The notes below the pieces were generated by a model. It did no database searches. It saw nothing but the letters and a program-made list of their open reading frames with translations, and was not told the origin of the DNA. The position numbers were made by a program, and so were the translations under genes. Positions 7,738 to 26,695 of a DNA stretch of 64,000 nucleotides are shown here, in pieces. Numbering within the stretch: the stretch's first letter is position 1; every line of letters starts with the position of its first letter. The stretch comes from Marinobacter maroccanus (GTDB taxonomy: Bacteria; Pseudomonadota; Gammaproteobacteria; Pseudomonadales; Oleiphilaceae). Location of the stretch: assembly GCF_002933275.1 (NCBI RefSeq), contig NZ_PSSX01000002.1, forward strand, positions 1 to 64,000, written 5' to 3'.

Positions 7738-9522
7738 ATGAATCTTATTGAGAAGCGGCATACAACGGCAACATCCGAAATTGATGAGTGGCTTCAAGGA
7801 TTGGAGCTACCCGTGGCACGTCTCGCTCAATCGGCTCTATCTCGCTTAGGCTTTGGTCGGTTCAGCGAGGGCTGGTCCATGCCGCTACCGATTGATGGTG
7901 GCGGCTCGATGCTCCTATTGCTCGACAGCCGTTTTCCATATTCTGTTCCTCGAATCGCCGTTTTAGAACGCGATGACATTTTGCTTTGGCCACATGTCGA
8001 GCACAACGGACTCCTCTGCATCGCAGGTGACAACGCAAACGTTGCGACATGCCAGCCACTTGAGATAGTTCGGAACACCCTGTGCGAGGCTGAAACCTTG
8101 CTTCAACAAAACGAACGCGGGGAACTCGAAGATGACTATTTGATCGATTTTCATGCATATTGGCGCAGGAACATCGATGCATCAGAATCCACGATTTATT
8201 CGATTACCGACCACCTGGATCAGAGTCGAATCGTCAGTGCCTGGCATGGAAAGAGCGGGTACTGGGTAGGAGAGACACCGGGTGACCTTCTGGGCTGGTT
8301 CAAGAACCGAAATGGAGAGCCGCCAGAGGGAAAAACGAAACCAGCTGGGTTAATAAAGTTAATTCGCTTACCCGAGCCTGCGGAATACCCTACGACGGTC
8401 GTGCAACTCCGTCATATGCTCGCTCATTTATCCCATGGTGGCCTGAGTGTTCTTGATCAGCTGCTACAGCAGGAGCCACAGCGCGTGGTTGTGTTGCTAG
8501 AAGGTTTAACGGCAACAGATGAGAAAGCCTCTGCTGGCCTAATCATCCAGGGGGCGAGTAACCCTCGAAGCAAGTCCAACCGCGTGAGAGCACCTCTTTC
8601 AAAAGGGTTCCGACCTGGCCGTGTTCCAGGGAAAATTCTTGCCACTCGGTATAGCTTGAGGCGAGCGCCGGTTACAGCATTGGATTCCAGTCGTAGTCGT
8701 ATGGATCCGTCTATCATTTCCGTGATTGCCTCGAAAAAAGTGGCCATTATTGGCTGCGGGTCCGTGGGTTCTTCAGTGGCGCGAATACTCGTCCAAAGTG
8801 GCGTAAACAATTTGGTCTTGGTCGACCCAGAGCGACTCGGCTGGGAAAATATCGGAAGGCATGAGCTTGGTGCTCAATATGTCGGAAATAGCAAAGCTGA
8901 AGCCCTGGAAAAGCACCTCCGTAGAAACCTACCCCACGTAAAAGACATCCGCGCTGTGAACAAAGATCTCGTCAGGGCTATTTCTGAGGATTCGCGGTTA
9001 TTCGCGGGCTGTGACCTCATTATATCAGCCACAGCAGACTGGAATTCTGAAAGCGCCCTGAACGACTTGCAGATCGAGGGTGAGATTCATTGCCCGATCA
9101 TCTACTCTTGGCTCGAAGAAAAAGCAGCTGCTGCCCACGCTCTTGTCGTTTTTAGGGAGAATCGTGGTTGCTTTGCATGTGGGTTTGGGTCAACGGGAAA
9201 AGCCAAGGTGTCCGTCACCCGATGGCGCGAGGCTAAGGCAGACCTCCAATGTGGCGGAGGTGTCAGTGTTTATGGGAGCGCGGAACTCGCCAATGCTCAC
9301 GCGCTCACGTCCTCATTGTCGATTGATGTGTTGACGAGTAAGGTCTCGGAGACAATAAGGCGAGCGTGGATTTCGGGGGAAGATACTCTTTTTCGGTATG
9401 GTGGCTCCTGGAATCAAGACTGGCTATCCGAGCATGGTGAGCCAGAGAAGTATGGTCGAGCAGTTGAAACCGATTGGGATGCAAACTGGGAATGTGTCAG
9501 TTGTCGAAAGAGAAAAGGATGA
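7738..9522 (+). CDS. cap2: CBASS Cap2, E2-E1 fusion conjugating enzyme
   Basis: Ubiquitin-transfer-like enzyme that primes the CD-NTase by attaching its C-terminus to a target. The N-terminal E2-like domain (about 1-150) has a candidate catalytic Cys94 in HNGLLCIAGD. A linker follows (about 150-325), then a ThiF/E1 adenylation domain with the nucleotide loop IIGCGSVGSS (338-346), LVDPERL (Asp363) and WENIGRH (Asn371, Arg374). A cysteine in LQCGGG, around residue 505, is the candidate E1 catalytic residue. CxxC pairs in GCFACG (478-481) and near the C-terminus (CVSC) probably bind zinc as in MoeB. Length (594 residues) fits Cap2. The gene starts 8 bases after the cyclase stop and its stop overlaps the cap3 start. 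Confidence 0.92.
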   Translation: MNLIEKRHTTATSEIDEWLQGLELPVARLAQSALSRLGFGRFSEGWSMPLPIDGGGSMLLLLDSRFPYSVPRIAVLERDDILLWPHVEHNGLLCIAGDNANVATCQPLEIVRNTLCEAETLLQQNERGELEDDYLIDFHAYWRRNIDASESTIYSITDHLDQSRIVSAWHGKSGYWVGETPGDLLGWFKNRNGEPPEGKTKPAGLIKLIRLPEPAEYPTTVVQLRHMLAHLSHGGLSVLDQLLQQEPQRVVVLLEGLTATDEKASAGLIIQGASNPRSKSNRVRAPLSKGFRPGRVPGKILATRYSLRRAPVTALDSSRSRMDPSIISVIASKKVAIIGCGSVGSSVARILVQSGVNNLVLVDPERLGWENIGRHELGAQYVGNSKAEALEKHLRRNLPHVKDIRAVNKDLVRAISEDSRLFAGCDLIISATADWNSESALNDLQIEGEIHCPIIYSWLEEKAAAAHALVVFRENRGCFACGFGSTGKAKVSVTRWREAKADLQCGGGVSVYGSAELANAHALTSSLSIDVLTSKVSETIRRAWISGEDTLFRYGGSWNQDWLSEHGEPEKYGRAVETDWDANWECVSCRKRKG

Positions 9523-10058
9523 TCTACCGATTCAAAATCCATAACATCATCCTGACCGTCGAATTATCCGATTCGGTGCTTGCCCACTTCAACCAACATG
9601 CTCAACACTCAGACGCATCCCCGGAAGCTGGGGGGCAACTCTTCGCTAACATTACCGAGGAGGGATGTCACTGGTTCGTTTCAAGTGCCACCGGGCCAAG
9701 ACCCAGTGATCACCGATCACGGTTCTTCTTTAACCCTGATCGGCGAATTGAGCGGCGTGAAATAAAGGATGAATATGAACAAGGCAAGCACTACGTCGGT
9801 GATTGGCACACTCACCCTCAGCAGTCTCCGCAGCCCTCCGCAAGTGATACCCGAAGCATGGGAGAAATATTTGAAAAATCGATCCATCAACTGCCTGGCA
9901 TTTTAATGATCATTGTTGGCACCCATCCACCGCCCGACGGGGTCTGGGTTTCTATGCACAGCAGTCTAGGAATGGCGCTACCTCTACCATCGTTGTCCGT
10001 TCCGGATTCGAACCAAGCACTACCAAAGACCGAAGTACCTAGAGCAAGCGAGAACTAA
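9519..10058 (+). CDS. cap3: CBASS Cap3, JAMM/JAB-type isopeptidase
   Basis: Zinc peptidase that reverses Cap2-made conjugates. The JAMM set is complete: Glu36 in EAGGQLF, His97 and His99 in DWHTHP, and Asp110 in PSASD. The start ATG 9519 overlaps the cap2 stop (ATGA) and follows AAAAGG; a longer in-frame reading from 9474 would run through the end of cap2 and is rejected. The product has 179 residues, with a low-complexity tail. Having both Cap2 and Cap3 defines a type II CBASS. Its stop codon is followed with no gap at all by the hsdM start, so translation may couple the two defence systems. Confidence 0.9.
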   Translation: MIYRFKIHNIILTVELSDSVLAHFNQHAQHSDASPEAGGQLFANITEEGCHWFVSSATGPRPSDHRSRFFFNPDRRIERREIKDEYEQGKHYVGDWHTHPQQSPQPSASDTRSMGEIFEKSIHQLPGILMIIVGTHPPPDGVWVSMHSSLGMALPLPSLSVPDSNQALPKTEVPRASEN

Positions 10059-12512
10059 ATGGCAATTAAGAAGACTGATCTGTATTCCTCTCTCTGGGCC
10101 AGTTGCGACGAATTGCGCGGCGGTATGGACGCATCCCAGTACAAGAACTATATCCTGACACTGCTCTTCGTTAAGTATGTTTCGGACAAATACGCTGGCA
10201 AGAAGCATGGCGCGATTGTCGTTCCTGAAGGCGGCTCGTTTGCGGATATGGTTGCACAGAAGGGGAAGGCGGACATTGGCGATCAGCTCAATAAGATCAT
10301 CGGTAAGCTGGCCACCGAAAATGACATGGCCTGGCTCTCCAACCCTGAAAACGACTTCAATAATGAAGATCGCTTGGGCAAGGGCAAGGCCATGGTCGAC
10401 ACGCTCTCTTCACTGGTCGGGATATTTGAGAATTTAAGCCTGGGTAAAAATCGCGCAGACGGCGATGACCTGCTGGGCGATGCCTACGAATTCCTTATGC
10501 GCCACTTTGCGACCGAATCAGGAAAGAGCAAAGGGCAATTTTATACACCATCTGAAGTCTCTCGCATTCTCGCCAGCGTCCTTGGAATCGACAAAGATAC
10601 CCGCCAGGACGAGACTGCTTATGACCCGACATGCGGTTCTGGTTCCTTGCTTTTAAAAGTCAACGACCAAGCGCCGAACGGGCTTACGCTCTATGGTCAG
10701 GAAAAAGACAACGCGACCGCCGCACTGGCAAAGATGAACATGATCTTGCATGACTGCCCCTCAGCAGATATCTGGCAAGATGACACACTGGCTGAGCCTC
10801 ATTGGCTTCAAGATGATGGCAATCTGAAGACGTTCGATTATGCCGTAGCCAACCCACCTTTTTCGTCCAAGTCTTGGAGCAGCGGAATAACCATCTCCCA
10901 AGATCAATTCAATCGCTTTGAATATGGAGAGCCGCCTGAAAAAAACGGGGATTACGCCTTCTTGCTCCATATCATCAAGTCGTTAAATAGCGCGGGCAAG
11001 GGTGCAGTGATCCTGCCGCACGGTGTCCTGTTCCGTGGGAACGCCGAAGCCGATATCCGCCGTAATATCATCCGCCAAGGCTATATTCAGGGCATCATCG
11101 GCCTACCAGCAAACCTGTTTTATGGGACTGGCATTCCTGCCTGCATCATCGTCATTGACAAAGCTGGCGCAAAGGCCGAGCGCCCGATTTTTATGATCGA
11201 CGCCTCCAAGGGCTTCATGAAGGATGGCAACAAGAACCGCCTTCGCTCTCAGGACATCCACAAAATCATCGATGTCTTTAATAAAGGGCTGGTAATTGAC
11301 CGTTACTCCCGATTGGTGCCCTATGACGAAATAGTCGGAAAGAACGAGTTTAACCTCAACATCCCGCGCTACATTGATTCCAGCGAGCCAGAGGATATTC
11401 ACGATCTGGATGCGCATCTTAATGGCGGTATCCCTAATCCTGATATTGATGCGTTGCAGGAATACTGGGATGTTTTCCCGACCTTGCGCAGCACTCTTTT
11501 TGAAGAAGGTACGCGCGAGGGCTACTCAGAGCCTTTGGTCGAGGAGCGTGAGGTAAAGGCGACTATCCTTTGCCATAACGAATTTGAGAGTTTTAAAGCT
11601 GGATGCCTGGAGCTTCTGGAGGGTTGGAAGGACGCCCATCAAGATAGGCTAATGTCGATAGATGTTGGCACAAGCCCGAAAGAGCTTATCTTTGATATCT
11701 CTGAAGATTTGCTCACCCGCTTTGGCGACGCCCGGTTACTTTCAAAATATAACGTTTATCAGATCCTGATGGATTACTGGGCCGAAATAATGCAGGACGA
11801 CGTCTATATGCTGTCCCAAGACGGCTGGAAAGCCGCCAATGTTGTGCGTCAGCTCGTGCCCGTAAAGGATAAGAAGGGGAAGTCCGTCTACAAGGAAGAT
11901 CATGATTTTGAGTTTGGTAGCGCCAAGATTAAGAAGCGTTATCGTAGCGATATTGTTAGGCCGAAGCTCATCATTGATCGCTATTTTTCGGAACAGCAGG
12001 CAGCGCTGAATGATCTGGAAGCCGCTCAGGATGAAGCCACACAGACGCTGGAGGCCTTTATCGAAGACAACAGCGGCGAAGATGGCCTGATTGAAGATGC
12101 CAAGAACGATAAAGGAAAGGTCACGCAGAAGGGCATTAAGGATCGATTAAAAGAGAGCACCGATGATGAAGAGATTGCAGCTCTCAAGGAGTGCATTGAA
12201 CTCGTCACAGCCGAATCTAAAGCCAAGTCTGAGGCAAAAGCCGCAAAAGAGGCACTGGATGATTTGGTCTTCAAGAAAATCCCGACCATTCCCGAAGATG
12301 GGCTAAAAGATATCGTCGTTAACGAAAAATGGTATGCACGCGTTGAAGAACATGTCGTCGAAGAAATCGAACGAGTTACGCAGAGCCTTGCCAACCGGGT
12401 AAAAACGCTGGAACAGCGGTATTCCAAAACTCTGCCGTCACTGAGCGATGATGTCTCAAAATACACTGATCGTGTCGAAGCTCACCTGAAGAAAATGGGG
12501 TTGTCATGGTGA
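10059..12512 (+). CDS. hsdM: Type I restriction-modification DNA methyltransferase subunit HsdM
   Basis: N6-adenine methyltransferase subunit of a type I RM complex. The N-terminal helical HsdM domain begins KKTDLYSSLWASCDELRGGM; the SAM-binding motif DPTCGSGSLL lies at about residues 189-198 and the catalytic NPPF at about 264-267. At 817 residues it is much longer than E. coli HsdM (529): the extra C-terminal 300 residues are rich in charged helices (about 640-810) and probably form coiled coils that contact HsdS. It starts on the base after the cap3 stop and overlaps hsdS by 7 bases. The ribosome site would lie inside the cap3 end (AAGCGAGAAC), which is weak, hence probable translational coupling. 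Confidence 0.95.
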   Translation: MAIKKTDLYSSLWASCDELRGGMDASQYKNYILTLLFVKYVSDKYAGKKHGAIVVPEGGSFADMVAQKGKADIGDQLNKIIGKLATENDMAWLSNPENDFNNEDRLGKGKAMVDTLSSLVGIFENLSLGKNRADGDDLLGDAYEFLMRHFATESGKSKGQFYTPSEVSRILASVLGIDKDTRQDETAYDPTCGSGSLLLKVNDQAPNGLTLYGQEKDNATAALAKMNMILHDCPSADIWQDDTLAEPHWLQDDGNLKTFDYAVANPPFSSKSWSSGITISQDQFNRFEYGEPPEKNGDYAFLLHIIKSLNSAGKGAVILPHGVLFRGNAEADIRRNIIRQGYIQGIIGLPANLFYGTGIPACIIVIDKAGAKAERPIFMIDASKGFMKDGNKNRLRSQDIHKIIDVFNKGLVIDRYSRLVPYDEIVGKNEFNLNIPRYIDSSEPEDIHDLDAHLNGGIPNPDIDALQEYWDVFPTLRSTLFEEGTREGYSEPLVEEREVKATILCHNEFESFKAGCLELLEGWKDAHQDRLMSIDVGTSPKELIFDISEDLLTRFGDARLLSKYNVYQILMDYWAEIMQDDVYMLSQDGWKAANVVRQLVPVKDKKGKSVYKEDHDFEFGSAKIKKRYRSDIVRPKLIIDRYFSEQQAALNDLEAAQDEATQTLEAFIEDNSGEDGLIEDAKNDKGKVTQKGIKDRLKESTDDEEIAALKECIELVTAESKAKSEAKAAKEALDDLVFKKIPTIPEDGLKDIVVNEKWYARVEEHVVEEIERVTQSLANRVKTLEQRYSKTLPSLSDDVSKYTDRVEAHLKKMGLSW

Positions 12513-13789
12513 GGAAAGGCTATAAACAGACCGAGGTCGGAGAGATTCCAGAAGACTGGGATGTAAAATCAGTGTCTGATTTTGTCGCACTATTGGAGTC
12601 TGGTGTAAGCGTTAACTCAGTTGAGGTTGGGGATATTTCAGGCTCTGAGTGCATTCTGAAAACTTCATGTGTTTTTAAAGGCGAGTTCAAGCCAGAAGAA
12701 GCAAAGGCGATTGCTAAAAGGGATATTCAGCGTGCTAAAACGACTGCAAAAAAGAATGCAATTATTGTAAGTCGAATGAATACGCCAGAACTTGTTGGAG
12801 AGGTGGGGCTGGTTCCTGATGATTTCAATAACTTATTCCTTCCCGACCGGTTGTGGCAGACAAAATACCAGAGGGGAGTTAATGTTTCTCCTCTATGGCT
12901 TTCCAAGTGTATTTCATACCCACCAATCGCGAAGAAGCTAAAGGATAACGCGACTGGTACTAGCAACAGTATGAAGAATATTTCAAAAAATACATTCCTT
13001 GAGCTAAAAGTTCCGGCACCAAAATACTGTGAACAGGAAAGAATTGGTCAAGCGCTCAATGATGTAGATGTGTTAATTAAAAATTTGGAGGAGCTAATCG
13101 CGAAAAAGTGGGATATAAAAAATGCCATGATGCAACAGCTTCTTACAGGTAAAAAGCGCCTTCCAGGATTCCTCGGGGAGTGGTCAAAAATTAGTATGGA
13201 AAAGGATGCCGAGCTTAATGCGAGAATAGGCTGGCAGGCTTTGACTACGAAAGAGTACTTGGATTCAGGTGATTACTTTTTGGTAACCGGTACAGATTTT
13301 ATTAAGGGGCGGATTAATTGGAATTCTTGCCATTTTGTTGATGAATGGAGATATAGTCAAGACAGGAAAATTCAACTGAAAGAAGGAGACGTCCTTTTAA
13401 CTAAAGACGGAACCATAGGTAAAGTTGGGTATGTAGATGAATTGAGTTTTCCAGCAACGTTAAATAGTGGTGTTTTTGTTATTCGACCACGTAATGATAA
13501 TTTTCATCCGTTATTTTTGTTTTATATTTTGATGTCCCGCGTTTTTGACGATTTTCTTTCAAAAATTACGGCAGGGTCAACCATAACACATTTGTATCAA
13601 AAAGATTTTGTTACATTCGACTTTTATGCACCATATTTAGATGAGCAAAGGGAAATATCAAAAGTACTTTTTAATATCGATAAAGATATCGAAGCTCATG
13701 AAACCAAGTTAGGAAAGGTAAGGGCGTTGAAGGAAGGTATGATGCAAGAGCTTCTGACGGGAAGAACACGCATTGTTGATGAGCCTTAA
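12506..13789 (+). CDS. hsdS: Type I restriction-modification specificity subunit HsdS
   Basis: DNA-recognition subunit with two target recognition domains of about 180-200 residues each. The first starts GYKQTEVGEIPEDWDVKSVS and ends at the conserved helix that finishes MMQQLLTGKKRLPGF; the second ends with the matching repeat KEGMMQELLTGRTRI. The internal repeat of these central and C-terminal helices is the hallmark of HsdS. The gene is visibly AT-richer than hsdM and hsdR, especially in 13200-13700, as is common where recognition domains are swapped by recombination. ATG 12506 overlaps the end of hsdM; GTGAGG follows at once. The target sequence cannot be predicted by eye. Confidence 0.93.
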   Translation: MVRKGYKQTEVGEIPEDWDVKSVSDFVALLESGVSVNSVEVGDISGSECILKTSCVFKGEFKPEEAKAIAKRDIQRAKTTAKKNAIIVSRMNTPELVGEVGLVPDDFNNLFLPDRLWQTKYQRGVNVSPLWLSKCISYPPIAKKLKDNATGTSNSMKNISKNTFLELKVPAPKYCEQERIGQALNDVDVLIKNLEELIAKKWDIKNAMMQQLLTGKKRLPGFLGEWSKISMEKDAELNARIGWQALTTKEYLDSGDYFLVTGTDFIKGRINWNSCHFVDEWRYSQDRKIQLKEGDVLLTKDGTIGKVGYVDELSFPATLNSGVFVIRPRNDNFHPLFLFYILMSRVFDDFLSKITAGSTITHLYQKDFVTFDFYAPYLDEQREISKVLFNIDKDIEAHETKLGKVRALKEGMMQELLTGRTRIVDEP

Positions 13790-13833: not shown

Positions 13834-16800
13834 ATGAGTGATGTGGGACAAAGGGAAAGAGAAACTCAAAACCGGATCGTGAAGCTGTTTCATGAGCAGC
13901 TTGATTATGAGTATCTCGGTGATTGGCACGACCGCGAGGAGCTTAATAGCAACATCGACGTCGGGTTGCTTGAGGGATGGCTTCAAGGTCGCGGCATCAA
14001 TGACACATTGATAAAGCGGGCATTGCGGGAACTGGAACAAGCAGCGGCGCTTGGTGACGGGCGGCATCTTTATGATGCAAATAGGGATGTCTACTCACTT
14101 CTACGTTATGGCGTGAAAGTGAAAGAAGGTGCAGGAGAGCAATACAGCACCGTTTGGCTTATTGACTGGGAGACGCCGTTTGCCAATGACTTTGCCATCG
14201 CTGAAGAGGTTTCGATTAAGGGTGAGAATAAAAAGCGCCCTGATGTTGTTCTTTACGTTAATGGTATCGCTCTCGGAGTGATCGAGCTAAAGCGCTCGTC
14301 CGTTTCTGTTGGCGAGGGTATCCGGCAGAACCTGGACAACCAGAAAAAGGCCTTTATCCGGAATTTTTTTACCACTATGCAGCTTGTCATGGCGGGTAAC
14401 GATACGGAAGGGCTTCGCTATGGAACAATAGAAACCCCAGAAAAGCATTATTACCGTTGGAAGGATGAGGTAGAGAACGGTTTCGACCACTCTCTCGACT
14501 TTCATCTCTCCAGAATGTGCTCGAAAGAGCGTTTTCTCGAAATCATTCACGACTTTATTGTATTTGATTCGGGCGTAAAAAAGACCTGCCGCCATAACCA
14601 ATTTTTTGGAACCAATGCGGCACATAAGTTTGTGCAGGACCGCAAAGGCGGCATTATTTGGCATACGCAGGGTTCAGGTAAAAGCCTCACAATGGTCTGG
14701 CTTGCCAAGTGGATACGCGAAAACATTGCAGATGCCCGTGTTCTTGTAGTTACTGATCGCACAGAGCTTGACGACCAAATTGAGAAGGTCTTCACAGGTG
14801 TTCAGGAAAAAATCTATCGCACCAAGGACGGAGCAGGACTCATTAGTGCTCTGAATGCCACAACCCCATGGCTGATTTGTTCTTTGGTACACAAATTTGG
14901 CCGCCAATCGGAAGAAGGTGATTCCCAGGCGACCGAAGACTACATCAAAGAATTACAGGACAATCTGCCGTCTGATTTTAGTGCCAAAGGCAATATCTTT
15001 GTATTCGTGGATGAATGTCACCGAACACAATCCGGCAAACTCCACGAGGCCATGAAGTCAATTCTGCCTAACGCTGTTTTTATTGGCTTCACAGGCACGC
15101 CACTACTGAAGGAAGAAAAGAAGCGCAGCATCGAAGTCTTCGGTCCGTTTATTCATACCTATAAATTCGATGAAGCTGTCGATGATGGTGTTGTCCTCGA
15201 CCTTCGTTATGAGGCACGGGACATTGACCAGTATGTCATCTCTCAAAAGAAGATTGATCAATGGTTCGAGCTTAAAACCAAGGGATTGTCTGATATGGCG
15301 CGTGCCCAGCTGAAGCTGAAATGGGGCACGATGCAAAAAGTCCTTTCTTCCCAGGACAGGCTGGAACAGATCGTCAACGATATCCTTATGGATATGGAGA
15401 CTAAGCCCAGGCTTATGGATGGTCGCGGCAACGCGATGTTGGTGTGCGCGAGTATTTATCAGGCCTGCAAGGTCTATGAACTATTCCAGAAGACTGATTT
15501 TGCAGGAAAGTGCGCGATTGTCACGAGCTATCACCCGTCGCCTGCGGATATCAAAGGCGAGGAGAGTGGGGCGGGTTTGACCGAGCGAATTCACCAATAT
15601 GAAATTTACCGCAAGATGCTCGCAGATTACTTCGAACAGCCCGAAGACGAGGCTATGGGAAAGGTCGAAGAGTTTGAAAAGAGGGTGAAGAAAACGTTCA
15701 TCGACGAGCCAGGTCAAATGCGCCTTTTGATTGTGGTCGATAAATTGCTCACCGGCTTTGATGCGCCGTCCGCTTCCTACCTCTACATCGATAAGCAAAT
15801 GAGAGATCATGGCTTGTTCCAGGCGATCTGCCGAGTCAACAGAATTGATGGCGAGGACAAGGATTACGGCTATATCATCGATTACAAAGACCTGTTCCAT
15901 CGCTTGGAGGGTGCGATTGGTGACTACACCAATGGCGCTTTTGATGGGTATGAGTCTAAAGATGTGGCGGGCTTGCTCTCTGATCGTCTGCAAAAAGGTA
16001 AGGAAAAGCTCGATGAGTGCCTTGAGAGTGTAAAAGCTCTTTGTGAAGCGGTGCTTGAGCCCAAGGGGCAAAAAGAATACCGGAATTACTTTTGTGGCGA
16101 TGTTGCTAAGCCGGAAGAACTGCGCGCCAACGAGCCAAAGCGCTTGTCACTATATAACGGGGTAGCAAAGCTCCTTCGGGCCTATGCCAATCTTGCCAAT
16201 GAACTAGAAGATGCCGGGTACACGGCAGACCAGGCTAAAGAGATTAAGAGTGAAGTTGAACACTTCAACAAGGTACGGGAAGAGATCAAGCTGGCAAGCG
16301 GCGATTATATCGACATGAAGAAGTATGAGCCTGCAATGCGCCATCTTCTTGATACCTATATAAGAGCAGAAGACAGCGAGGTGGTCGCCGACTTCGAAGA
16401 ACTAGGCCTCATTGACCTAATCGTCAAAAAAGGTTTGGCAGGCCTTGATGATATGCCTGCTTCTATGAAGGCCGATGAAGAAAACATGGCCGAGACCATC
16501 GAAAACAACATGCGCAAAGTCATTATTGACGAACAGGCTGTTAATCCAGCCTATTATGAGCGTATGTCTGAATTATTGGACGCACTGATTGAAGAGCGAC
16601 GTCAGCAGGCCATTGGCTACAAAGAGTACCTAGAAAAGGTCAAAGAGCTATCATTACAAGTTGTGAATGCGGGCGGTATCGATTCGGACGCATACCCCAA
16701 ATCGATAAACACGCCTGCCAAAAAAGCGCTTTTCGATAACCTCAGTCAGGATGAAAGTCTGGTTTTACGCATTGATACAGCGGTGCGCCACACCAAAAAA

Positions 16801-16926
16801 GCCGATTGGATTGGTAACCGCATCAAAGAGCGTGAGGTAGCGGGCGCAATCAGCCAGGAGCTTGCCAACGACAGCCGTCTAGAAGAAATTGTGGAACTGG
16901 TGAAAAGCCAATATGAGTACCGATAA
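13834..16926 (+). CDS. hsdR: Type I restriction-modification endonuclease/translocase HsdR
   Basis: Motor and nuclease subunit, 1030 residues. The N-terminal PD-(D/E)xK nuclease reads KKRPDVVLYVNG...GVIELKRS (about residues 131-153). The SF2 helicase motifs follow: Walker A TQGSGKSLTMVW (about 279-290), VTDRTELDDQ, VDECHRTQSG (about 390-400), FTGTPLL (about 420), and later LLTGFDAPS and QAICRVNR. The C-terminal third is helical, consistent with HsdM contacts. It starts 44 bases after hsdS, the largest gap in the operon; AGGGACTT at about 13821-13828 is only a modest ribosome site. Its end overlaps the metallopeptidase gene by 14 bases. Confidence 0.95.
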   Translation: MSDVGQRERETQNRIVKLFHEQLDYEYLGDWHDREELNSNIDVGLLEGWLQGRGINDTLIKRALRELEQAAALGDGRHLYDANRDVYSLLRYGVKVKEGAGEQYSTVWLIDWETPFANDFAIAEEVSIKGENKKRPDVVLYVNGIALGVIELKRSSVSVGEGIRQNLDNQKKAFIRNFFTTMQLVMAGNDTEGLRYGTIETPEKHYYRWKDEVENGFDHSLDFHLSRMCSKERFLEIIHDFIVFDSGVKKTCRHNQFFGTNAAHKFVQDRKGGIIWHTQGSGKSLTMVWLAKWIRENIADARVLVVTDRTELDDQIEKVFTGVQEKIYRTKDGAGLISALNATTPWLICSLVHKFGRQSEEGDSQATEDYIKELQDNLPSDFSAKGNIFVFVDECHRTQSGKLHEAMKSILPNAVFIGFTGTPLLKEEKKRSIEVFGPFIHTYKFDEAVDDGVVLDLRYEARDIDQYVISQKKIDQWFELKTKGLSDMARAQLKLKWGTMQKVLSSQDRLEQIVNDILMDMETKPRLMDGRGNAMLVCASIYQACKVYELFQKTDFAGKCAIVTSYHPSPADIKGEESGAGLTERIHQYEIYRKMLADYFEQPEDEAMGKVEEFEKRVKKTFIDEPGQMRLLIVVDKLLTGFDAPSASYLYIDKQMRDHGLFQAICRVNRIDGEDKDYGYIIDYKDLFHRLEGAIGDYTNGAFDGYESKDVAGLLSDRLQKGKEKLDECLESVKALCEAVLEPKGQKEYRNYFCGDVAKPEELRANEPKRLSLYNGVAKLLRAYANLANELEDAGYTADQAKEIKSEVEHFNKVREEIKLASGDYIDMKKYEPAMRHLLDTYIRAEDSEVVADFEELGLIDLIVKKGLAGLDDMPASMKADEENMAETIENNMRKVIIDEQAVNPAYYERMSELLDALIEERRQQAIGYKEYLEKVKELSLQVVNAGGIDSDAYPKSINTPAKKALFDNLSQDESLVLRIDTAVRHTKKADWIGNRIKEREVAGAISQELANDSRLEEIVELVKSQYEYR

Positions 16927-17641
16927 ACGCGTTATCATGGTCTCGGATATTCCAGTAGAGGTTGTTCGAAAGAACATTAAAAACCTTCACCTCGGTGTGT
17001 ATCCTCCTGAAGGCGTGGTGCGCATTTCCGTTCCATCCCACGTCTCAGATGACAGCGCTCGCTTGGCTGTAATTTCGCGCTTGGCCTGGATTAAGCGTCA
17101 GCAGGATCAATTCAGAAAGCAGCCCAGGCAAACACAACGTTGCTACGTTACCGGTGAAAGTCACTATTTCAGGGGGCGTCGCTACATTCTCGATGTTGTC
17201 GAACGCACAGGTCCTCACCTTGTCGAACTTCGCTCCAATGCCAAGCTCAAGTTGGTCGTTAATCCGGGCACATCCGAGAAAGGGAGACACTTAGCGATGG
17301 ATCGCTGGTACCGACACGAGATGAGGGCGGAGGTCAATGCCTTGTTGGAAAAATGGTTACCAAAGATAGGCAAGCCTTTGCGCGATTGGGGTATCAAGCG
17401 TATGAAAACCAAGTGGGGCAGTTGCAATACTTCGGCAGCAAGGGTCTGGCTAAATCTTGAACTGATAAAGAAATCCCCAGAGTGCCTGGAGTATATATTG
17501 GTTCACGAACTTGCTCATCTGCACGAACGCCATCACAACGACCGCTTTGTCCAGATTCTGGACCAGCTGCTTCCAAGCTGGAGGCGAAGCAGGGATATTC
17601 TCAAGAGTGAGCCTCTTGCTCACGAGGATTGGACTTACTGA
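16913..17641 (+). CDS. YgjP/DUF45-type M48-like metallopeptidase
   Basis: Predicted zinc metalloprotease, 242 residues. The zinc motif is HELAHLHERHHNDRF near residues 197-211 (HExxH plus a downstream HxxxF), preceded by the family block MKTKWGSCNTSAARVWLNLELIKKSP. Both are typical of YgjP/SprT-like DUF45 proteins. The gene overlaps the end of hsdR by 14 bases, and members of this family are often found directly behind hsdR, which suggests a role in controlling or processing the RM enzyme; this is context, not demonstrated here. A GTG-rich start region leaves ATG 16913 the only sensible choice. It is the last gene of the island before dif. Confidence 0.85.
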   Translation: MSTDKRVIMVSDIPVEVVRKNIKNLHLGVYPPEGVVRISVPSHVSDDSARLAVISRLAWIKRQQDQFRKQPRQTQRCYVTGESHYFRGRRYILDVVERTGPHLVELRSNAKLKLVVNPGTSEKGRHLAMDRWYRHEMRAEVNALLEKWLPKIGKPLRDWGIKRMKTKWGSCNTSAARVWLNLELIKKSPECLEYILVHELAHLHERHHNDRFVQILDQLLPSWRRSRDILKSEPLAHEDWTY

Positions 17642-17901
17642 CAGGTTAGTATGTTATTCAGGGATCTACTTCGCATTTTCACAGCCAAAAACTGACCCGC
17701 TGGTCGCCAACTGTGCCAACTCAAAGCGTTAGGGGACTTTCCTCTAAATTGTATATTTCCAGCGCCAAGCTTTTTCTACAAGGGCGAGTCTGAGCGGCTC
17801 CTCCGTCCGGATATCCTATTTAACATAATATACATTATGCGCAGCTGTATGTGGGATTATGTTTTGGTTTTCGGCTGGTGGATGCCCACACAAAGTGCTA
17901 C
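17642..17901. other. Island-chromosome junction, no gene
   Basis: About 260 bases with no credible coding frame between the convergent metallopeptidase and exported-protein genes. It contains the dif site (17818-17845). A stretch near 17685-17697 (AAAACTGACCCGC) weakly resembles the reverse complement of the left IS-like repeat (AAAATTGACCCAC), but the match is too poor to call an element end. Confidence 0.5.
17818..17845 (-). other. dif: Chromosome dimer resolution site dif (XerCD target)
   Basis: The 28 bases match the reverse complement of the E. coli dif site, as recalled, at 27 positions; only 17844 differs (G for C). On the plus strand the XerD arm is ATTTAACATAA (17818-17828), the central hexamer is TATACA (17829-17834), and the XerC arm is TTATGCGCAGC (17835-17845). 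Dif is normally single-copy at the replication terminus, where FtsK-activated XerCD resolves chromosome dimers. It lies between the defence island and ordinary chromosome genes. Confidence 0.92.
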
Positions 17902-18288
17902 TTATTCGGTCGTTTGCGCAACCGCTGCTGCCCACTCATCTTCTGTCATGTGATCACGGATAACGAATCGGCGATCGAGCGCAAGGGATTGAGCTGCTTC
18001 CCACTCGTCATTCAACAGATCAAGTTCCGCCTGCAGGTCAGCAGGACCAGCGTCGTGATCTTTATATAATTCGGTCAAAACCTTGCCGGATTTAGCAAAC
18101 GTTTTGTCGAATTGCTTCAATTCATCCCGGAGGGCCGCTACCTCCTGCATAACGACTTCGGCCCTGGCCGGTTCGGTGATGGCCTGCTGTGCGAGCCTTT
18201 CGAAGCTCTTGAGCATGTCCTGGGTCAGGATCGCGCCGGATGCGTTGGGACCACCCAGAAAAAAAGCAACTATGATTGCCACCAGCAT
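17902..18288 (-). CDS. Exported helical hypothetical protein
   Basis: A 128-residue protein with a signal peptide (MLVAIIVAFFLGGPNASG) and a helical, charged mature part (LKSFERLAQQAITEPARAEV, ELKQFDKTFAK). The family is not recognised. It starts 1 base after the stop of the upstream lipoprotein gene, with GGGAGG 9 bases before its ATG, so the two are co-transcribed. The phrase E-P-A-R-A-E recurs as N-P-A-R-A-E in the lipoprotein, hinting that the two are related or work together at the cell envelope. It is the first chromosomal gene beyond dif. Confidence 0.65.
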   Translation of the reverse strand: MLVAIIVAFFLGGPNASGAILTQDMLKSFERLAQQAITEPARAEVVMQEVAALRDELKQFDKTFAKSGKVLTELYKDHDAGPADLQAELDLLNDEWEAAQSLALDRRFVIRDHMTEDEWAAAVAQTTE

Positions 18289-18289
18289 C

Positions 18290-18766
18290 TTACTGGCCTC
18301 CCGCCTGATAACTCATGGTTCTTGGGTTAAGTTCCTTCAACTCAAACTTCGCCAGCTTTCCCCACTCTTTTGCCGTAACAGTTGCCTTCATCTTGCCCAT
18401 CAACGCCAGGAACTCGGATTGGGCGGCGCGGCGTTCCGCGTTGTATTTCTGAATGAGAGTTTCCAGGGTTTCGCGTTCGGTTGAATAATCCCGGCTCAAA
18501 GTCTTCAGTCTTTTCGAATAGTGTTGCACTGCAGTGGCGTGCTGGCTGATTAACTGTTCCCTTTCAGCTGCTAAAGCCGCAAACTTTTCAGCCCTCGCCG
18601 GGTTATCTATTTCGTCGGCAATCAAATTCTGGAAATCGGCACGAGTTTCCGCGCGCTGCTTTTCCAGCTCCTCTGGACTCGAGTCTTTCGATTTGCTGGC
18701 GCAGCCGATAAAGGTTGATGTTGCGATACTGGCAACGAACACGATAAAAATCGGATTAAGTTTCAT
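18290..18766 (-). CDS. Coiled-coil lipoprotein of unknown function
   Basis: A 158-residue predicted lipoprotein: the signal sequence ends in the lipobox TFIGC with the lipidated cysteine at residue 22. The mature part is nearly all charged helix (KSKDSSPEELEKQRAETRAD; REQLISQHATAVQHYSKRL; TERETLETLIQKYNAERRAA) and should form a coiled coil in the periplasm. No known family is recognised. It probably shares a transcript with the exported protein just downstream, and perhaps with the two outer-membrane genes upstream (115-base gap). Confidence 0.7.
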   Translation of the reverse strand: MKLNPIFIVFVASIATSTFIGCASKSKDSSPEELEKQRAETRADFQNLIADEIDNPARAEKFAALAAEREQLISQHATAVQHYSKRLKTLSRDYSTERETLETLIQKYNAERRAAQSEFLALMGKMKATVTAKEWGKLAKFELKELNPRTMSYQAGGQ

Positions 18767-18880
18767 TTGTTTATCCGGGTTTTCGGCCTTTGTATGTCTG
18801 ATCTTTGACCAGTTATGGTTGTTCCGCTATCAGTTCTGCGCAACATATAGTTTTTCAGGTCGGCACCCGATGTGGCTATT

Positions 18881-19666
18881 TCAGAAGCTGATACCCAGCC
18901 CCAGATAGGGACCGCTTGCTGTCATGTCCCAGGTAGTTCCGTCGTCTTCGTAGTCCCAATAAAGCTGGCGATACCCCGCCTTGGCATTGAAATTACTGGA
19001 AAACTCCCAGTTTGCACCAACCATGAATTGATACGTCAGATCGGAACCGCCACCCCCGACATCCGCATAGCCCAGCAAGGACCACTGCTTGTTAAGTGGG
19101 TGGAGTGCACGCACACCAACCACCGCATCAGTCCAGCTATCCGACTCGCTGGCGCTTGTGACCCCACCGGGGAAAACAATGGCTGGATTCGTCGCAAGGA
19201 CAACTCTGGCCTCAGTATCGAGCTTCGTGATTCTCAGTGCCCCGACCATATCGATAGCGGTGGTATTGTCCAGAACCCGGTAAGCAACTGATCCCTGGTA
19301 GACATACAGCTTGCTTGTCACGTTTAACGCGCCATCGACAGTCACCTGACCGAAGGGCCCGCTTACACTTTTTGAGCCCTCATCAGACAACTTCATGTAA
19401 ACCGCTTCCAGGCCAAAGGTCCAAGGACCTTTGCTGGCTGTAAAAAGCCCCATAAAACCTGAATCGAGGTCGTCCACGATGTCACTGAAAGAAGCATCCA
19501 CATCACTGGTGACGCCCCGGATACCAACCCTTCCGTCCATAGCGGCTGCGAACACGTAAGGCGTGGCTTCAAATTGCCAGCCGTCACTCTCAGCCGAGGA
19601 AGCCATTTGGCTCAGGCCGCAGGCCAGGACGACCAGCGGAATTGAAATAAACCCAATCAAGCGCAT
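18881..19666 (-). CDS. Outer-membrane beta-barrel protein
   Basis: A 261-residue protein with a signal peptide (MRLIGFISIPLVVLACGLSQ, cleavage near S-S-A-E) and alternating hydrophobic/polar strands rich in Gly and aromatics (GWQFEATPYVFAAAMDGRVG; AGYRQLYWDYEDDGTTWDM). It ends in GLGISF, the C-terminal Phe signature recognised by the BAM complex. It resembles the small OmpW/DUF-type barrels of unknown cargo. ATG 19666 is preceded by GGGGAGGG; the longer reading from 19711 lies inside the upstream gene. It follows the other barrel gene with a 10-base gap, so the two form one unit. Confidence 0.78.
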   Translation of the reverse strand: MRLIGFISIPLVVLACGLSQMASSAESDGWQFEATPYVFAAAMDGRVGIRGVTSDVDASFSDIVDDLDSGFMGLFTASKGPWTFGLEAVYMKLSDEGSKSVSGPFGQVTVDGALNVTSKLYVYQGSVAYRVLDNTTAIDMVGALRITKLDTEARVVLATNPAIVFPGGVTSASESDSWTDAVVGVRALHPLNKQWSLLGYADVGGGGSDLTYQFMVGANWEFSSNFNAKAGYRQLYWDYEDDGTTWDMTASGPYLGLGISF

Positions 19667-19676
19667 GGGCCCTCCC

Positions 19677-20453
19677 CTAAAAGTAGAATTTGAGGTAGGC
19701 CAGCGCACCATCGTACTGCCAGTTCAAGTCTCCCTGGAAACTTCTTTTTGAGACAGCAACGTCGAGTTCTACAGCATTAATACCAACACCAATCGCGATG
19801 ACTTCAGTCAAGCTGAAATCGAGACCGACAAAGACGTCGTAAAGCGATCCTTCATAATCACCGTAGTCGACTGCAAAAATTTCGCCGCTCCCGCGCAGCG
19901 CCCACCTGTCAGCAAACCGGTACTCTCCGCGCAAACCGATAACGGGCAAGGGTGCTGTAAGGTCGTTCGATTCGACACTGCCGACCGATGATGCTGATAA
20001 AGTCGCCTTCATGTCGGCTACATAGAGACCCACAGTTGCACCAAGAAAACTGCGATCGCGTTTGAGGAACATCCAGGTGTATGCAGCTTTATAGATCGAG
20101 AGGTCAAGATCGGTATTTACAGTGCTGCTGATGGGATACGTTGTATCCTCCCAGACTATTTCCCTTTCAATCTGTTTCGAGGATGAGCGAGAAAGATCGA
20201 ATACGCTGAAGTCGAATCGATGTTTCTCTGCGAATCTCCAATAGCCGTCCACGCGAAAAACCGTATCCGATTTCTTGAGTCCAAGGTCGTCTTCCAAGTC
20301 TATGTCCGTTCCACGGCCAGACTCCCCGTCAACTCTCGTCTGACTTTCGCGATCCGTAAAAAATGCGCCGACACTAATACTGAATCTTGGGTCTTCTTTA
20401 GCGATCGCCGTGCTCGTGATCATCAGCAACACAAAAAGCCAGGTGGCTCGCAT
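19677..20453 (-). CDS. Outer-membrane beta-barrel protein
   Basis: A 258-residue protein with a clear signal peptide (MRATWLFVLLMITSTAIAKE, cleavage after A-I-A) and barrel-like strands (FSISVGAFFTDRESQTR; YKAAYTWMFLKRDRSFLGAT; VFVGLDFSLTEVIAIGVGIN) closing in AYLKFYF with terminal Phe. No specific family is recognised. It is the upstream partner of the barrel gene at 18881-19666. GGGGAGGGG just before the ATG is a strong ribosome site. The pair, the lipoprotein and the exported protein run in one direction toward dif, and may form one envelope-related operon. Confidence 0.75.
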   Translation of the reverse strand: MRATWLFVLLMITSTAIAKEDPRFSISVGAFFTDRESQTRVDGESGRGTDIDLEDDLGLKKSDTVFRVDGYWRFAEKHRFDFSVFDLSRSSSKQIEREIVWEDTTYPISSTVNTDLDLSIYKAAYTWMFLKRDRSFLGATVGLYVADMKATLSASSVGSVESNDLTAPLPVIGLRGEYRFADRWALRGSGEIFAVDYGDYEGSLYDVFVGLDFSLTEVIAIGVGINAVELDVAVSKRSFQGDLNWQYDGALAYLKFYF

Positions 20454-20571
20454 GTTATCCCCTCCCCTGTGATTCCTTTCTTTCAGTATTCCTCTGAACG
20501 CATCCGCTTGCTATCAAGAAAACGCATGGAGCCGATTTGCGGGAAGAAGATGGGGCGGAGGCTTACAGTTG

Positions 20572-21531
20572 CTATCGGGTCGCCCGAGCAAGCGTCTGGC
20601 TCGGGCACTCACCAAAGGCTTTCTTGTACTGGGTGGCAAACAGGCTCAGGTGGCTGAAGCCCAACCTGAGCGCTTCATTTGTGACTGTGGTTTGGCCACC
20701 TGACGCCTTTAGCCTGCTGCGTACATGGTGAAGCCGCATCAGGCGTAGATAGCGGGACGGGCTCGTTCCAAAGGCATCCGCGAAGGCGTACTCCAGGTAT
20801 CGACGGCTAACACGCATTGCAACGCACAAGTCATCGATGCTCACCGGCTCTTCGGTTCTCTCGCGCATATAACGCTCGGCCCGCTTCGCGACAATGAAAT
20901 GCCCCCAGGCCTGAGAAATGACTTTCGCCGGAGGGACATCCATCGCGCTCAGAACGGCACCCAGCATATTGCGGAGATCGGTCACCAACCACTCTTCCGC
21001 CGGGCTAGCCAACGGACTCTCCGTTAGTCGAAATACGTTTGAGATGGCCTGTCTCAGCTCCGCTAGCGTTTCGGGGGCGGGACGGGTCGTGATACAGGAA
21101 GCCACCCGGGGTATGTTCGTTCGAGAAGTGGATTGTTCGATTGCATCGATCCACTCGGGAGGAATGATTAGAGATGTCCACCCGTACATTGCCGAAACAT
21201 AGCCGCTAAGCTCCTTGCCAGGTGGGAACAGTAACAATTGCGAGTCATCGACGTGATTGCCGTTCCAGGTAGCCTGAGCGCCTCTTGCGAGGGCGCCAAT
21301 GCTGAATCGCCCAGGGTCCAGTTCGCCCATCACACGGATCGGCAGGTTGACCGCACCGACGTCGATTGAAAGGTCGCCCAGTGACATCTGATCAAGCGCG
21401 ACGTGGAGATTGCCAGACTTCAGTTGGATAAATTCGAGGTTGGAACCACTGATGGCATGGTTAACCTCGTCCAGATCATGAAACACCGGAGGCTGGTAGT
21501 GATTCCCTGAAATACCACGTGTCACGTCCAT
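20572..21531 (-). CDS. AraC-family transcriptional regulator
   Basis: A 319-residue regulator with a C-terminal AraC DNA-binding domain: first HTH VSIDDLCVAMRVSRRYLEYAF (about residues 228-248), the linker FGTSPSRYLRLMRLHHVRSRL and second HTH TVTNEALRLGFSHLSLFATQ YKKAFGECP. The N-terminal ligand domain (1-200) resembles the AraC-binding-like cupin of the EutR/OruR type. It is transcribed away from the DUF1254 gene at 21786 over 254 bases, which makes that gene a likely target. No effector can be read from sequence. Confidence 0.88.
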   Translation of the reverse strand: MDVTRGISGNHYQPPVFHDLDEVNHAISGSNLEFIQLKSGNLHVALDQMSLGDLSIDVGAVNLPIRVMGELDPGRFSIGALARGAQATWNGNHVDDSQLLLFPPGKELSGYVSAMYGWTSLIIPPEWIDAIEQSTSRTNIPRVASCITTRPAPETLAELRQAISNVFRLTESPLASPAEEWLVTDLRNMLGAVLSAMDVPPAKVISQAWGHFIVAKRAERYMRERTEEPVSIDDLCVAMRVSRRYLEYAFADAFGTSPSRYLRLMRLHHVRSRLKASGGQTTVTNEALRLGFSHLSLFATQYKKAFGECPSQTLARATR

Positions 21532-24421: not shown

Positions 24422-24832
24422 TCAGCCATCTGGATTGCTTGCGAGTTCCTTGAGCGCCCTCATAGCCTCATCGGTGCGATCGCTGGGCACAAACATGTGG
24501 TCGTGATAGAACCCTGCGATAACGTTGGTGGTAATGCCCCGCTCTGCCAGCAGGCTTGTTACCACCGATGTCAGCCCCAGAGCTTCCAGACTGGAATGGC
24601 CCTCAAGGGTGATGCGACGGAAAATTCTGTAGTAGTCCAGGCCCTCCGCTTTGGCCTCCTCAAGAGGAATTACCAGAGTAAGGCCTTCCAGTTCGGCAAT
24701 GCTGACAATGGGCTTGAGGTGTTCCAGATCGCCATACTTTGCCTTTGGCACAGTGCAGTAAACGTACGTCGTCTCATCCAGTGTTGGCGAGAGCTGCTTG
24801 ATCAAATCCTTCAGGAACTGTGTTCGCATCAT
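24422..24832 (-). CDS. ACT domain-containing protein (DUF2241-like)
   Basis: A 136-residue cytosolic protein. The N-terminal half (LIKQLSPTLDETTYVYCTVP, then GLTLVIPLEEAKAEGL) fits DUF2241, and the C-terminal half (FRRITLEGHSSLEALGLTSV ... LLAERGITTNVIAGFYHDHMFVP) is an ACT-type ligand-binding fold. The family is thought to bind amino acids, but no target enzyme is known. Two adjacent ATG codons start the gene; either fits. It is separated from the isocitrate dehydrogenase-like gene by about 95 bases and reads in the same direction. Confidence 0.82.
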   Translation of the reverse strand: MMRTQFLKDLIKQLSPTLDETTYVYCTVPKAKYGDLEHLKPIVSIAELEGLTLVIPLEEAKAEGLDYYRIFRRITLEGHSSLEALGLTSVVTSLLAERGITTNVIAGFYHDHMFVPSDRTDEAMRALKELASNPDG

Positions 24833-24928
24833 TTTGACTGTCCTTAGGCCGAGAGTCGTTAGAATTCATTGAGGAAGTTTGGCAGCGCTGATTTTCAAAC
24901 AAATCCTCTCTTTAAAATAGCAAACAGA

Positions 24929-26665
24929 TCACTGGAGCGCCTTTTCCACGGCTTCCAGAAAACCGATCATATCCACCACCTGTTCAGAATCCGGATCAAC
25001 GGTTTTACCCTTCAGATCGGCAGTAACAATGCCCCGATCGACCGTATCGGTTAACGCGGCCTTCAATTGGATGGCGTATTGACTGAGCGGCTCGTTACCC
25101 TCTCTTTCACCGAGAGTTTCCAGGGCGTTGGCCAGCGCGAAAATCAACGCCGACGGGTTGAAATGGGCGACTTTCCCGTCGCTCTCCAGGTACTTTAGAT
25201 ACAAGTCATGAGCCGTGCCATGGGGCGCCTCGAACAGCATGGTGCCGTCCTTGCTCTCGATGATCGAACTGGCGGTCGCCAGGCTGCCACCGAGTGCCGC
25301 TGAAATATCCGAGAAGATGTCGCCATCCAGGTTCTGGGAGGGATAAAGTGCGTTTCTGGGTGGGTCGGTGATCATCTTCTTGAGCTGGCTCGAGGGCCGC
25401 ATGATCATGAACGAGGGCGGCGGCGTGTGTTCGCTGGCCAGTTCCCGGCGCACTTCGGTAATTACGTCGCTGTAGACTTCATCGTACTCCATGTACTCGC
25501 GCTTGAGGCCGAAATACACCTCTTTGTCCTTGCGGGAGGCGTCCCGGAAAACCTGCAGAACCCAGTCCTTGATGGCTTCCCGGTCGTTGGACATTAGCAA
25601 CATGGGGTCGCCTTTCCTGACCCGGCGGGCATGCTTTTCGTCACCGTCGACAATCACCTTGAGGATGCCATCCTCTTTCGCCGCCATGTTGAAGCTACCG
25701 TACTGGTCACCGCCACCGGCACTCATGCGTGATATGGACACGTGGGCACCCCGGCCCGGAATGCCAAACTCGCGAAGCTGATTTACCAGCTTGAGCAGTT
25801 TGCGCCCGGTGGTGTTGTCCGGCACACCCCAAAGTGCGCGCTCCGGCGGATTGGAGACAATGCGCGCCGCCTGGGCATCAATCAGCTCATAGTAATAATT
25901 GAGCCCCAGATCCTCGATCTGCTTCTTGTAGTCGCTGTGATAGATGTCCTCGATCACCGAGCGCATGGCGCCGTCGTAGCCGGGAATCACGGTGTCTTTC
26001 AGGCCCAGGTACACATCGCGTTTTTCTGCGATGGCCCGCTGGAAAAAACGGTGGGCCCAGGCTTTAACATCCTCGATGTCGTTGGTTGCCAGCAGCCAGG
26101 GATCGCCCTTGCGGATTTCTCGCCGGTGAAGCTCTACCGGGTCGCCACTGCTACCTACAAACATCAGTTTGACCACACCGGTTGCCATGGACAGCTGGTT
26201 AAAGCTGTCCTTGATGCCACCAAATTCCATGGTATCCACTTCAATATCGCGCCCTACCCACTCCGGCCGGCGGATATTGAGGTTGCGGAACTTGATGTCT
26301 TCCCGGGTAATGTTGCCGCTGATGCCCTTGCGGATCGCGCCGTTAGGGGACTTGGTCGCCAGCGGATGCAGGTTGTTGCCATCCACATTCGGGTGCTTGC
26401 GGAGCAAGTCCTCCAGTTGCTGCCGGTTCACCGTCATACCAGCGTTCTTCACCCCCACGCCGTGGCGCTGGAGCGAATCGATTGCATCGATAACCACCTG
26501 GCCATTGGTCAGCAGACGGTTTTCCGCGGACAGATCGATCTCCTCAAGCTGAATATCAAGCCGTGAGCTCACGAATTTCTTGAGAATATGCTCGAACGCA
26601 ACCTGCGCCATTTCGTCACCATGAAGGATAACGAGAGGCGAGGTCACACTGATTCTGCTGTCCAT
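24929..26665 (-). CDS. Isocitrate dehydrogenase-like enzyme with internal duplication
   Basis: A 578-residue member of the isocitrate/isopropylmalate dehydrogenase family, expected to oxidise isocitrate to 2-oxoglutarate. The catalytic and metal block NLDGDIFSDISAALGGSLAT (445-464) and FEAPHGTAHD (478-487) are clear. The usual enzyme has about 400-450 residues; here a unit of about 165 residues is repeated. KGDPWLLATND (186-196) recurs as KGDPMLLMSND (351-361), RDVYLGLK (216-223) as KEVYFGLK (381-388), and PPERALWGVPDN (273-284) as PPRNALYPSQN (435-445). The first copy keeps the K-T-I...YDG stretch of the substrate-handling region and the second keeps the Asp-rich metal site. It lies 30 bases behind mqo on the same strand, so both TCA-cycle genes form a unit. 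Coenzyme preference cannot be judged. Confidence 0.82.
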   Translation of the reverse strand: MDSRISVTSPLVILHGDEMAQVAFEHILKKFVSSRLDIQLEEIDLSAENRLLTNGQVVIDAIDSLQRHGVGVKNAGMTVNRQQLEDLLRKHPNVDGNNLHPLATKSPNGAIRKGISGNITREDIKFRNLNIRRPEWVGRDIEVDTMEFGGIKDSFNQLSMATGVVKLMFVGSSGDPVELHRREIRKGDPWLLATNDIEDVKAWAHRFFQRAIAEKRDVYLGLKDTVIPGYDGAMRSVIEDIYHSDYKKQIEDLGLNYYYELIDAQAARIVSNPPERALWGVPDNTTGRKLLKLVNQLREFGIPGRGAHVSISRMSAGGGDQYGSFNMAAKEDGILKVIVDGDEKHARRVRKGDPMLLMSNDREAIKDWVLQVFRDASRKDKEVYFGLKREYMEYDEVYSDVITEVRRELASEHTPPPSFMIMRPSSQLKKMITDPPRNALYPSQNLDGDIFSDISAALGGSLATASSIIESKDGTMLFEAPHGTAHDLYLKYLESDGKVAHFNPSALIFALANALETLGEREGNEPLSQYAIQLKAALTDTVDRGIVTADLKGKTVDPDSEQVVDMIGFLEAVEKALQ

Positions 26666-26695
26666 GGGGATCTCCCTGCTGTTTGTTGGCCTGAC

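Follow-up and report, generated by a model that had tools for sequence, protein, structure and literature searches.

The terminus of the Marinobacter maroccanus chromosome carries a dif site flanked by an island that is most likely the cargo of a Tn7-like transposon. We consider it likely, taking this reading as a whole, that two Tn7-like families inserted about 35 bp from dif by way of a target selector that senses the site. The analysis began with a 64,000-nucleotide stretch at the start of contig C12 (NZ_PSSX01000002.1), here called the window. Its dif is itself ordinary, and the association with transposons is the point of interest.

We propose that TniQ, or a partner of it, acts as the target selector and would recognise dif, its conserved flanks, or XerCD seated on dif. 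The selector would load TnsC, and TnsAB would then insert the element at a fixed distance of ∼35 bp from dif, to its left or right, without disrupting the site. Another Tn7-like family, unrelated to the first, would behave likewise throughout Marinobacter, chiefly on the XerC side; its decayed end lies 33 bp right of this dif. The dif sequence, the terminus signals, the element ends, their distances and the transposase genes were all observed directly; we infer that the selector recognises dif.

The dif site and its conservation

The 28 bases at window positions 17818–17845 (minus strand), ATTTAACATAATATACATTATGCGCAGC, are the chromosomal dif. They show the 28-bp layout of a XerD arm (17818–17828), a central hexamer (17829–17834) and a XerC arm (17835–17845). 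The original prediction held that they match E. coli dif in reverse orientation at 27 of 28 positions, and this count was reproduced against the E. coli sequence and arm anatomy. The XerD arm is exact, and the single mismatch is the second-outermost base of the XerC arm. The C at this position is usual for Marinobacter (94 of 110 matching genomes). The outermost XerC-arm base is unusual: it is G here and in a total of four of the 110 genomes, the remaining ones having A. The entire 28-mer recurs only in G031 among the 110.

A proposed search for further dif-like sites turned up none better. At ≤3 mismatches, nothing else in the window matches, nor does anything else in the whole assembly (4.34 Mb, 61 contigs); 100 shuffled windows gave no match. 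The suggested comparison with related Marinobacter likewise bore out the assignment: exactly one match was found in 110 of 120 genus genomes, this one included, and a match is present in 102 of the 106 genus genomes of high quality. XerC and XerD are both encoded (TIGR02225, 381 bits; TIGR02224, 359 bits; each above the NCBIfam cut-off). Judging from sequence, these recombinases would act at 17818–17845 to resolve chromosome dimers at the terminus.

In many relatives, the flanks of dif also carry a motif: ACGGTAT reads outward from dif on both sides and is thus inverted around it. Among 61 loci, matches of at least 5/7 occur on the XerC side in 36% and on the XerD side in 49%, compared with 2% of controls. 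As a speculation, a motif on both flanks could serve a two-sided target selector.

Signals of the replication terminus

The location of dif at the chromosome terminus is supported by several observations. Cumulative GC skew, the check that had been proposed, turns beside dif as far as the assembly permits: over 324 kb of contig C12, its maximum falls at 17501, 317 bp from dif. KOPS motifs (GGGNAGGG) point towards dif in 46 of 47 cases to its right on C12. To the left, where C12 offers just 17.8 kb, there is a single KOPS, and it too points towards dif. Within 10 kb of dif in 60 relatives, 213 of 225 KOPS are oriented towards the site (109/112 on the left, 104/113 on the right), and the left skew exceeds the right skew in 58 of the 60. 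Among 12 relatives with long contigs, the shorter dnaA–dif distance equals 0.46–0.50 of the contig in 11. The exception, G055, has a value of 0.24; with a contamination of 6%, this genome may be misassembled or rearranged.

The terminus is placed within the window, as had been claimed, by the agreement of skew and KOPS polarity with the single occurrence of the site, its conservation in the genus, the presence of XerC and XerD and the dnaA–dif spacing in relatives. The further statement that the terminus lies exactly at the island boundary stands only in part. The boundary is close, but the best-supported island end, at 17780, is 37 bp outside the XerD arm.

The island to the left of dif

GC content is 43–52% between 4.5 and 17.64 kb and 55–61% from 40 kb onward. 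The 4.5–17.64 kb stretch of the window encodes a WYL regulator, a CBASS operon, and a type I restriction-modification operon with a YgjP-like gene. The WYL-domain regulator (4523–5449) is on the minus strand; the genes that follow are on the plus strand. The CBASS set is complete, with a CapV-like patatin-like phospholipase effector (5537–6649), a DncV-like CD-NTase (6695–7729), a Cap2-like E1-E2 protein (7738–9522) and a Cap3-like JAB protease (9474–10058). CBASS with E1-E2 and JAB components is classed as type II. The type I restriction-modification set is also complete and comprises the methyltransferase HsdM (10059–12512), the specificity subunit HsdS (12506–13789) and the restriction subunit HsdR (13834–16926). 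The YgjP-like metallopeptidase (16913–17641; PF01863, 2e-56) is the last cargo gene before dif.

At the outer edge of the contig, positions 1–120 belong to the terminal part of a repeat that is probably an insertion sequence. Positions 3–120 of the window are identical to C25:1–118, which accounts for the contig break here. An ORF for a protein with a GmrSD C-terminal domain (111–929, plus strand; PF07510) starts within this repeat and has no PADLOC match at 1e-10.

Two other origins for the island were considered and rejected. As regards a plasmid source, 14 plasmid records match only 155–167 bp of the YgjP-like gene (5–6% of the query). A tRNA-targeted island would call for a tRNA, and the window has none.

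A probable Tn7-like transposon ending 37 bp from dif

The CBASS and restriction-modification island is most likely the cargo of a Tn7-like transposon that ends at 17780, as judged from its gene content and ends. The transposition genes were found on contig C7, which was reached via the DNA of a close relative's left flank. The last 19 kb of C7 carry a trkH-like gene followed by genes for TniQ, TnsC, TnsB, TnsA, a patatin, a PLD-domain protein and a UvrD-like helicase. The tnsA, tnsB, tnsC and tniQ genes lie together at C7:88270–93465. TniQ matches PF06527 (3e-11), TnsC matches TniB (2e-25) and TnsA matches PF08722. TnsB is recognised by the PADLOC TnsB model (1e-17), with an rve match below the cut-off. 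The transposon is presumably active at present.

The element starts on C7 with TGTAGGAAAAGCTTTGAGTTGAAA at 87601, 30 bp past the trkH stop codon. When this terminal 24-mer was compared with ∼648,000 positions (324 kb of C12, both strands), the best match started at 17780 with 19/24 identities, and the runner-up reached 16/24. The match reads away from dif. It corresponds to the dif-proximal terminal inverted repeat of the island, TGTAGAAAAAGCTTGGCGCTGGAA (17757–17780, minus strand), 37 bp from dif. By itself, this inverted repeat scores 28, equal to the maximum of 300 shuffles in a 700-bp region. A second copy of the end motif, GCTTTGAGTTG (17717–17727, minus strand), is a putative second TnsB site. 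Immediately outside the repeat, AGGGC at 17781–17785 is a candidate 5-bp target-site duplication; its partner at C7:87596–87600 is GGGGC, a 4/5 match.

The terminal inverted repeats at C7:87601 and window 17780 would thus bound an island of at least 36.5 kb, which crosses an unassembled insertion sequence where C7 would join C12. Because this junction is unassembled and its contig end is common to C25, other arrangements are possible. C7 and C12 may not be neighbours, in which case the C7 element would be separate and the match at 17780 would be due to chance or belong to another copy. We consider this unlikely. The 17780 match is the best of ∼648,000 positions, the flanking duplication agrees at 4/5, and the C7 end and the C12 start carry related repeats in opposite orientation that face each other. 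Synteny around trkH also argues for the join: the C7 gene has 89–91% protein identity to genes in G082 and G112 that end 1.0–2.4 kb left of dif in the same orientation. A third close homologue (90%), in G024, speaks against it: this gene lies 9 kb away on the other side of dif and is inverted.

An empty site for the island was sought and not found; the homology to G082 and G112 ends at or near the trkH stop codon. At 1e-5, no relative of this TnsA, TnsB or TniQ turned up in the other loci analysed, most of which span ±10 kb around dif. The dif preference of this lineage is therefore represented by one insertion.

A second Tn7-like family at dif across Marinobacter

Many relatives share one transposon end to the right of dif, consisting of three repeats of CCACAnAAAGTnCTAAA. 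A 22-letter end motif scoring ≥17 occurs 25–75 bp from dif in 25 of 60 loci, and in 20 of these it lies at 33–37 bp. Right ends have three inverted copies with spacings of ∼60 and 55 bp. The repeat arrays at the two ends of the element are asymmetric.

The left end is present in 41 of 124 genomes. Its position was analysed in 40 of 69 match rows; the others were 23 short rows of 21–26 nt, which may be right ends, and six without the 5′ end. For rows starting inside the query, the element start was extrapolated. Of these 40 left ends, 23 (in 23 genomes) start 33–37 bp from dif, all but one of them (22) on the XerC side, the exception being G099 on the XerD side. Another 12 lie elsewhere on the contig of dif, at 59, 63, 708 and 760 bp and at 10.5–119.8 kb; the remaining five come from other contigs or from a genome lacking a dif match. 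All 35 on the contig of dif read away from it. The rows set aside include one from G075, which places the end 35 bp away on the XerD side.

Autonomous copies encode TnsA, a TnsC-like ATPase, a fourth ORF and a divergent TnsB in which the D, D and E residues are invariant; tnsA, tnsB and tnsC lie in that order. Profile matches to TnsB and TnsC are weak: Mu-transpos_C, AAA_22 and TniB fall below the cut-off, and the match to TnsB in the PDB has a value of 0.0026. The fourth ORF appears TniQ-like by position and cysteine pattern only, with no Pfam or NCBIfam match. The TnsC-like and TniQ-like ORFs follow TnsB in seven of eight loci with full-length TnsB. In all eight, a 246-aa Xer-like tyrosine recombinase, c14, is encoded upstream of tnsA on the opposite strand. 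By reading of its sequence, c14 keeps the R, HxxR, H and Y residues. This constant position makes a recombinase-derived selector conceivable.

The TnsB of this family occurs in nine of 124 genomes. All eight of these with a dif match encode it on the contig of dif, 7.5–31 kb away. In G006, a perfect 5-bp duplication, AGGAT, flanks a 33,129-bp element. No matching duplication was seen in 11 of the 12 second-family elements examined, perhaps as a result of nesting or tandem insertion.

TnsB relatives also occur beyond the genus. A seven-sequence TnsB alignment was too diverse for the collection scan, and a three-sequence version found three loci. Across the order, 20 of 390 genomes have a TnsB relative; 16 of these are outside the genus and four are Marinobacter. 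Ten of the 16 non-genus genomes were examined (those left out were G218, G273, G408, G438, G441 and G489). Three of the ten (G266, G492 and G253) have a dif with ≤2 mismatches within 10 kb of TnsB, and the reversed dif gave no matches; contigs end nearby in G184, G245 and G311, so the absence of dif there says little. A gammaproteobacterial MAG (L179) with a TnsB relative has no dif in the 12.4 kb covered. Some relatives thus seem to use other sites.

Within Marinobacter, the presence of two unrelated Tn7-like lineages at 37 bp on the XerD side and 33 bp on the XerC side suggests that the insertion signal lies in dif, in its flanks or in the XerCD complex. With the island end at 37 bp and second-family ends at 33–37 bp, dif looks like a Tn7-like attachment site. 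We regard it as fairly probable that dif, or dif bound by XerCD, is the attachment site for at least two unrelated Tn7-like lineages, which insert 33–37 bp from either arm, leave dif intact and use it as a safe harbour in which defence islands, for example, are carried as cargo.

The region could instead be a site where foreign DNA is simply tolerated, and the island may have arrived through homologous recombination or a different recombinase. In 60 relatives, the DNA on each side of dif is highly variable, and many of these 60 loci have tyrosine recombinases distinct from XerC and XerD within ∼10 kb of dif (c5 in 14, c6 in 12, c14 in six). General tolerance would not, however, account for the positional precision of 23 left ends at 33–37 bp, or for an island that stops 37 bp from dif and has a matching inverted repeat at its other end, and we judge this explanation quite unlikely. 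A c6 gene lies 111 bp past dif in L105, as does the beginning of a gene of this kind in L059; neither has a transposon end.

The right side of this dif

To the right of dif, the window carries a decayed left end of the second family, TGGATGCCCACACAAAGTGCTACT (17879–17902, plus strand), 33 bp from the site. Intact second-family ends in relatives sit at the same distance. A position weight matrix of the family's ends gives its best score in the window here (19.9 at 17879), the next being 11.9 on either strand; the ends used to build the matrix score 25–43. Left-end and TnsB searches detected no other trace of the family in this genome.

A single recognisable repeat with two mismatches to the repeat consensus could be fortuitous, since 1.18 matches at ≤3 mismatches are expected per window, and the right side might never have carried a Tn7-like element. 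This is rather improbable given the top score in the window at the usual distance. Moreover, the close relative G098 retains the same remnant immediately after a complete right end.

The genes at 17902–21531 (minus strand) are a right flank common to the close relatives G098, G111 and G023; the first two of these have a Tn7-like right end between dif and the block. Further right, at 24422–28165 (minus strand), are genes for an ACT-domain protein and an isocitrate/isopropylmalate dehydrogenase-like protein and a cluster-4 gene, which are near dif in some relatives too. Window 30639–30852 and 30987–31200 form a 214-bp direct repeat, 72% identical, inside a 532-aa ORF, probably a domain duplication. 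In G098, a 292-aa ORF beside dif (L103, 4–882) is cut by the contig end; it looks recombinase-like by eye and has no Pfam match.

Xer-mediated integration, an improbable alternative

An island beside dif is not automatically the product of Xer integration. CTXphi, TLC and other IMEX elements recombine inside dif itself, so that another dif-like half-site remains after integration. The original prediction had proposed such a route for the DNA to the left, a proposal that the data do not support: there is no convincing second half-site and no tyrosine-recombinase match in the island, which has Tn7-like marks instead.

The nearest candidate for a second half-site is a XerD-type match with three mismatches at window 4207–4221. 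It is no better than chance, with 0.78 such matches expected. The window holds no second XerD arm at ≤1 mismatch and no XerC half-site at ≤3. Across the assembly, the sole other XerD-type match at ≤3 mismatches is on contig C61, with three, and there is no other XerC half-site at ≤2. The far end of the island thus has no convincing dif-like half-site in assembled DNA, only three-mismatch matches. No PF00589 match lies in C12:1–17.8 kb or on contig C7. The only phage-integrase-family gene matched on C12 is far from the island (346466–347068, PF00589) and resembles an integron integrase by reading of its sequence. This genome also has three adjacent tyrosine-recombinase genes at C11:63003–67148, with frames of 411, 711 and 634 aa, possibly a recombinase trio.

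Xer-type insertion does seem to happen elsewhere in the genus, in G028 and G060 among 60 relatives. On the XerC side of dif in G028 (L039), tandem units of ∼716 bp carry five exact central+XerC half-sites, one ending each unit; G060 has one exact central+XerC half-site, also on the XerC side. The 716-bp unit of G028 has a gene for a 63-aa protein whose C-terminal domain is that of filamentous-phage G2P, and is apparently a very small Xer-integrated satellite. The island studied here differs from both in lacking such exact half-sites. Although dif adjoins the island, its boundary lies 37 bp off rather than at an arm and is accounted for by the Tn7-like end, so that integration of an IMEX-type element into dif by the host XerC and XerD is very improbable.

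Significance and relation to known systems

dif occurs once in most circular bacterial chromosomes, and its loss is costly, which makes it an ideal target. Until now, dif has been linked to phages and islands that hijack Xer. If the present reading is true, the Tn7 family gains a new attachment site, used at a fixed offset with dif undisrupted. This would help to explain why foreign DNA accumulates at the Marinobacter terminus, and would offer a system in which to test whether a transposon can sense a recombination site or its bound recombinase.

No report of a Tn7-like insertion at dif stood among the titles and abstract openings listed in the literature searched; subscription papers were mostly outside this literature, and absence in print is unproven. 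Nor did this literature yield a paper on Tn402 together with XerC and dif, and where Tn7-like elements, the dif site and XerC were combined, Tn7-like appeared in reference lists only. The whole word ‘dif’ is absent from a survey of Tn7-like elements (PMC10293859) and from a survey of their cargo (PMC8649781). In the portions of these surveys available, ‘Xer’ stands for XerH in the former and is absent from the latter.

As a site, the Marinobacter dif resembles the E. coli-type dif/XerCD system in its 27/28 identity, single copy, skew inflection, KOPS polarity and encoded XerC and XerD. It differs in the Marinobacter-usual base in the XerC arm and in the ACGGTAT motif that flanks dif in many relatives.

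As a target, it recalls the Tn5053/Tn402 elements, ‘res-site hunters’ whose known target is the res sites of serine resolvases. These belong to the same broad transposon superfamily and insert beside a resolution site. That site is res in Tn5053/Tn402, whereas it is dif in Marinobacter.

Likeness to Tn7 and Tn7-like elements, as described in the available parts of PMC10293859 and PMC8649781, extends to TnsA, TnsB, TnsC and TniQ, repeats at both ends, a fixed insertion distance, the 5-bp duplication in G006 and the defence genes carried as cargo by the island studied here. Unlike them, the Marinobacter elements target dif rather than glmS, comM or other sites, belong to two unrelated lineages and insert on either side of dif. 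Tn6022-like elements use a selector, TnsF, that derives from a tyrosine recombinase, is catalytically inactive and targets comM, according to the consulted sections of PMC10293859. The second family similarly carries the Xer-like c14 beside tnsA, but c14 retains R, HxxR, H and Y, whereas TnsF is inactive and directed to comM.

IMEX elements also exploit the neighbourhood of dif. LME-1 of Legionella, in the accessible portion of PMC9765430, is a precedent of this type for mobile DNA at dif. A second half-site is expected of such elements, and none that is convincing occurs at the Marinobacter island. As far as these sources go, the nearest precedents for the arrangement at the Marinobacter terminus are Tn7 targeting by TnsD/TniQ and TnsF (PMC10293859), Tn5053/Tn402, and IMEX (PMC9765430).
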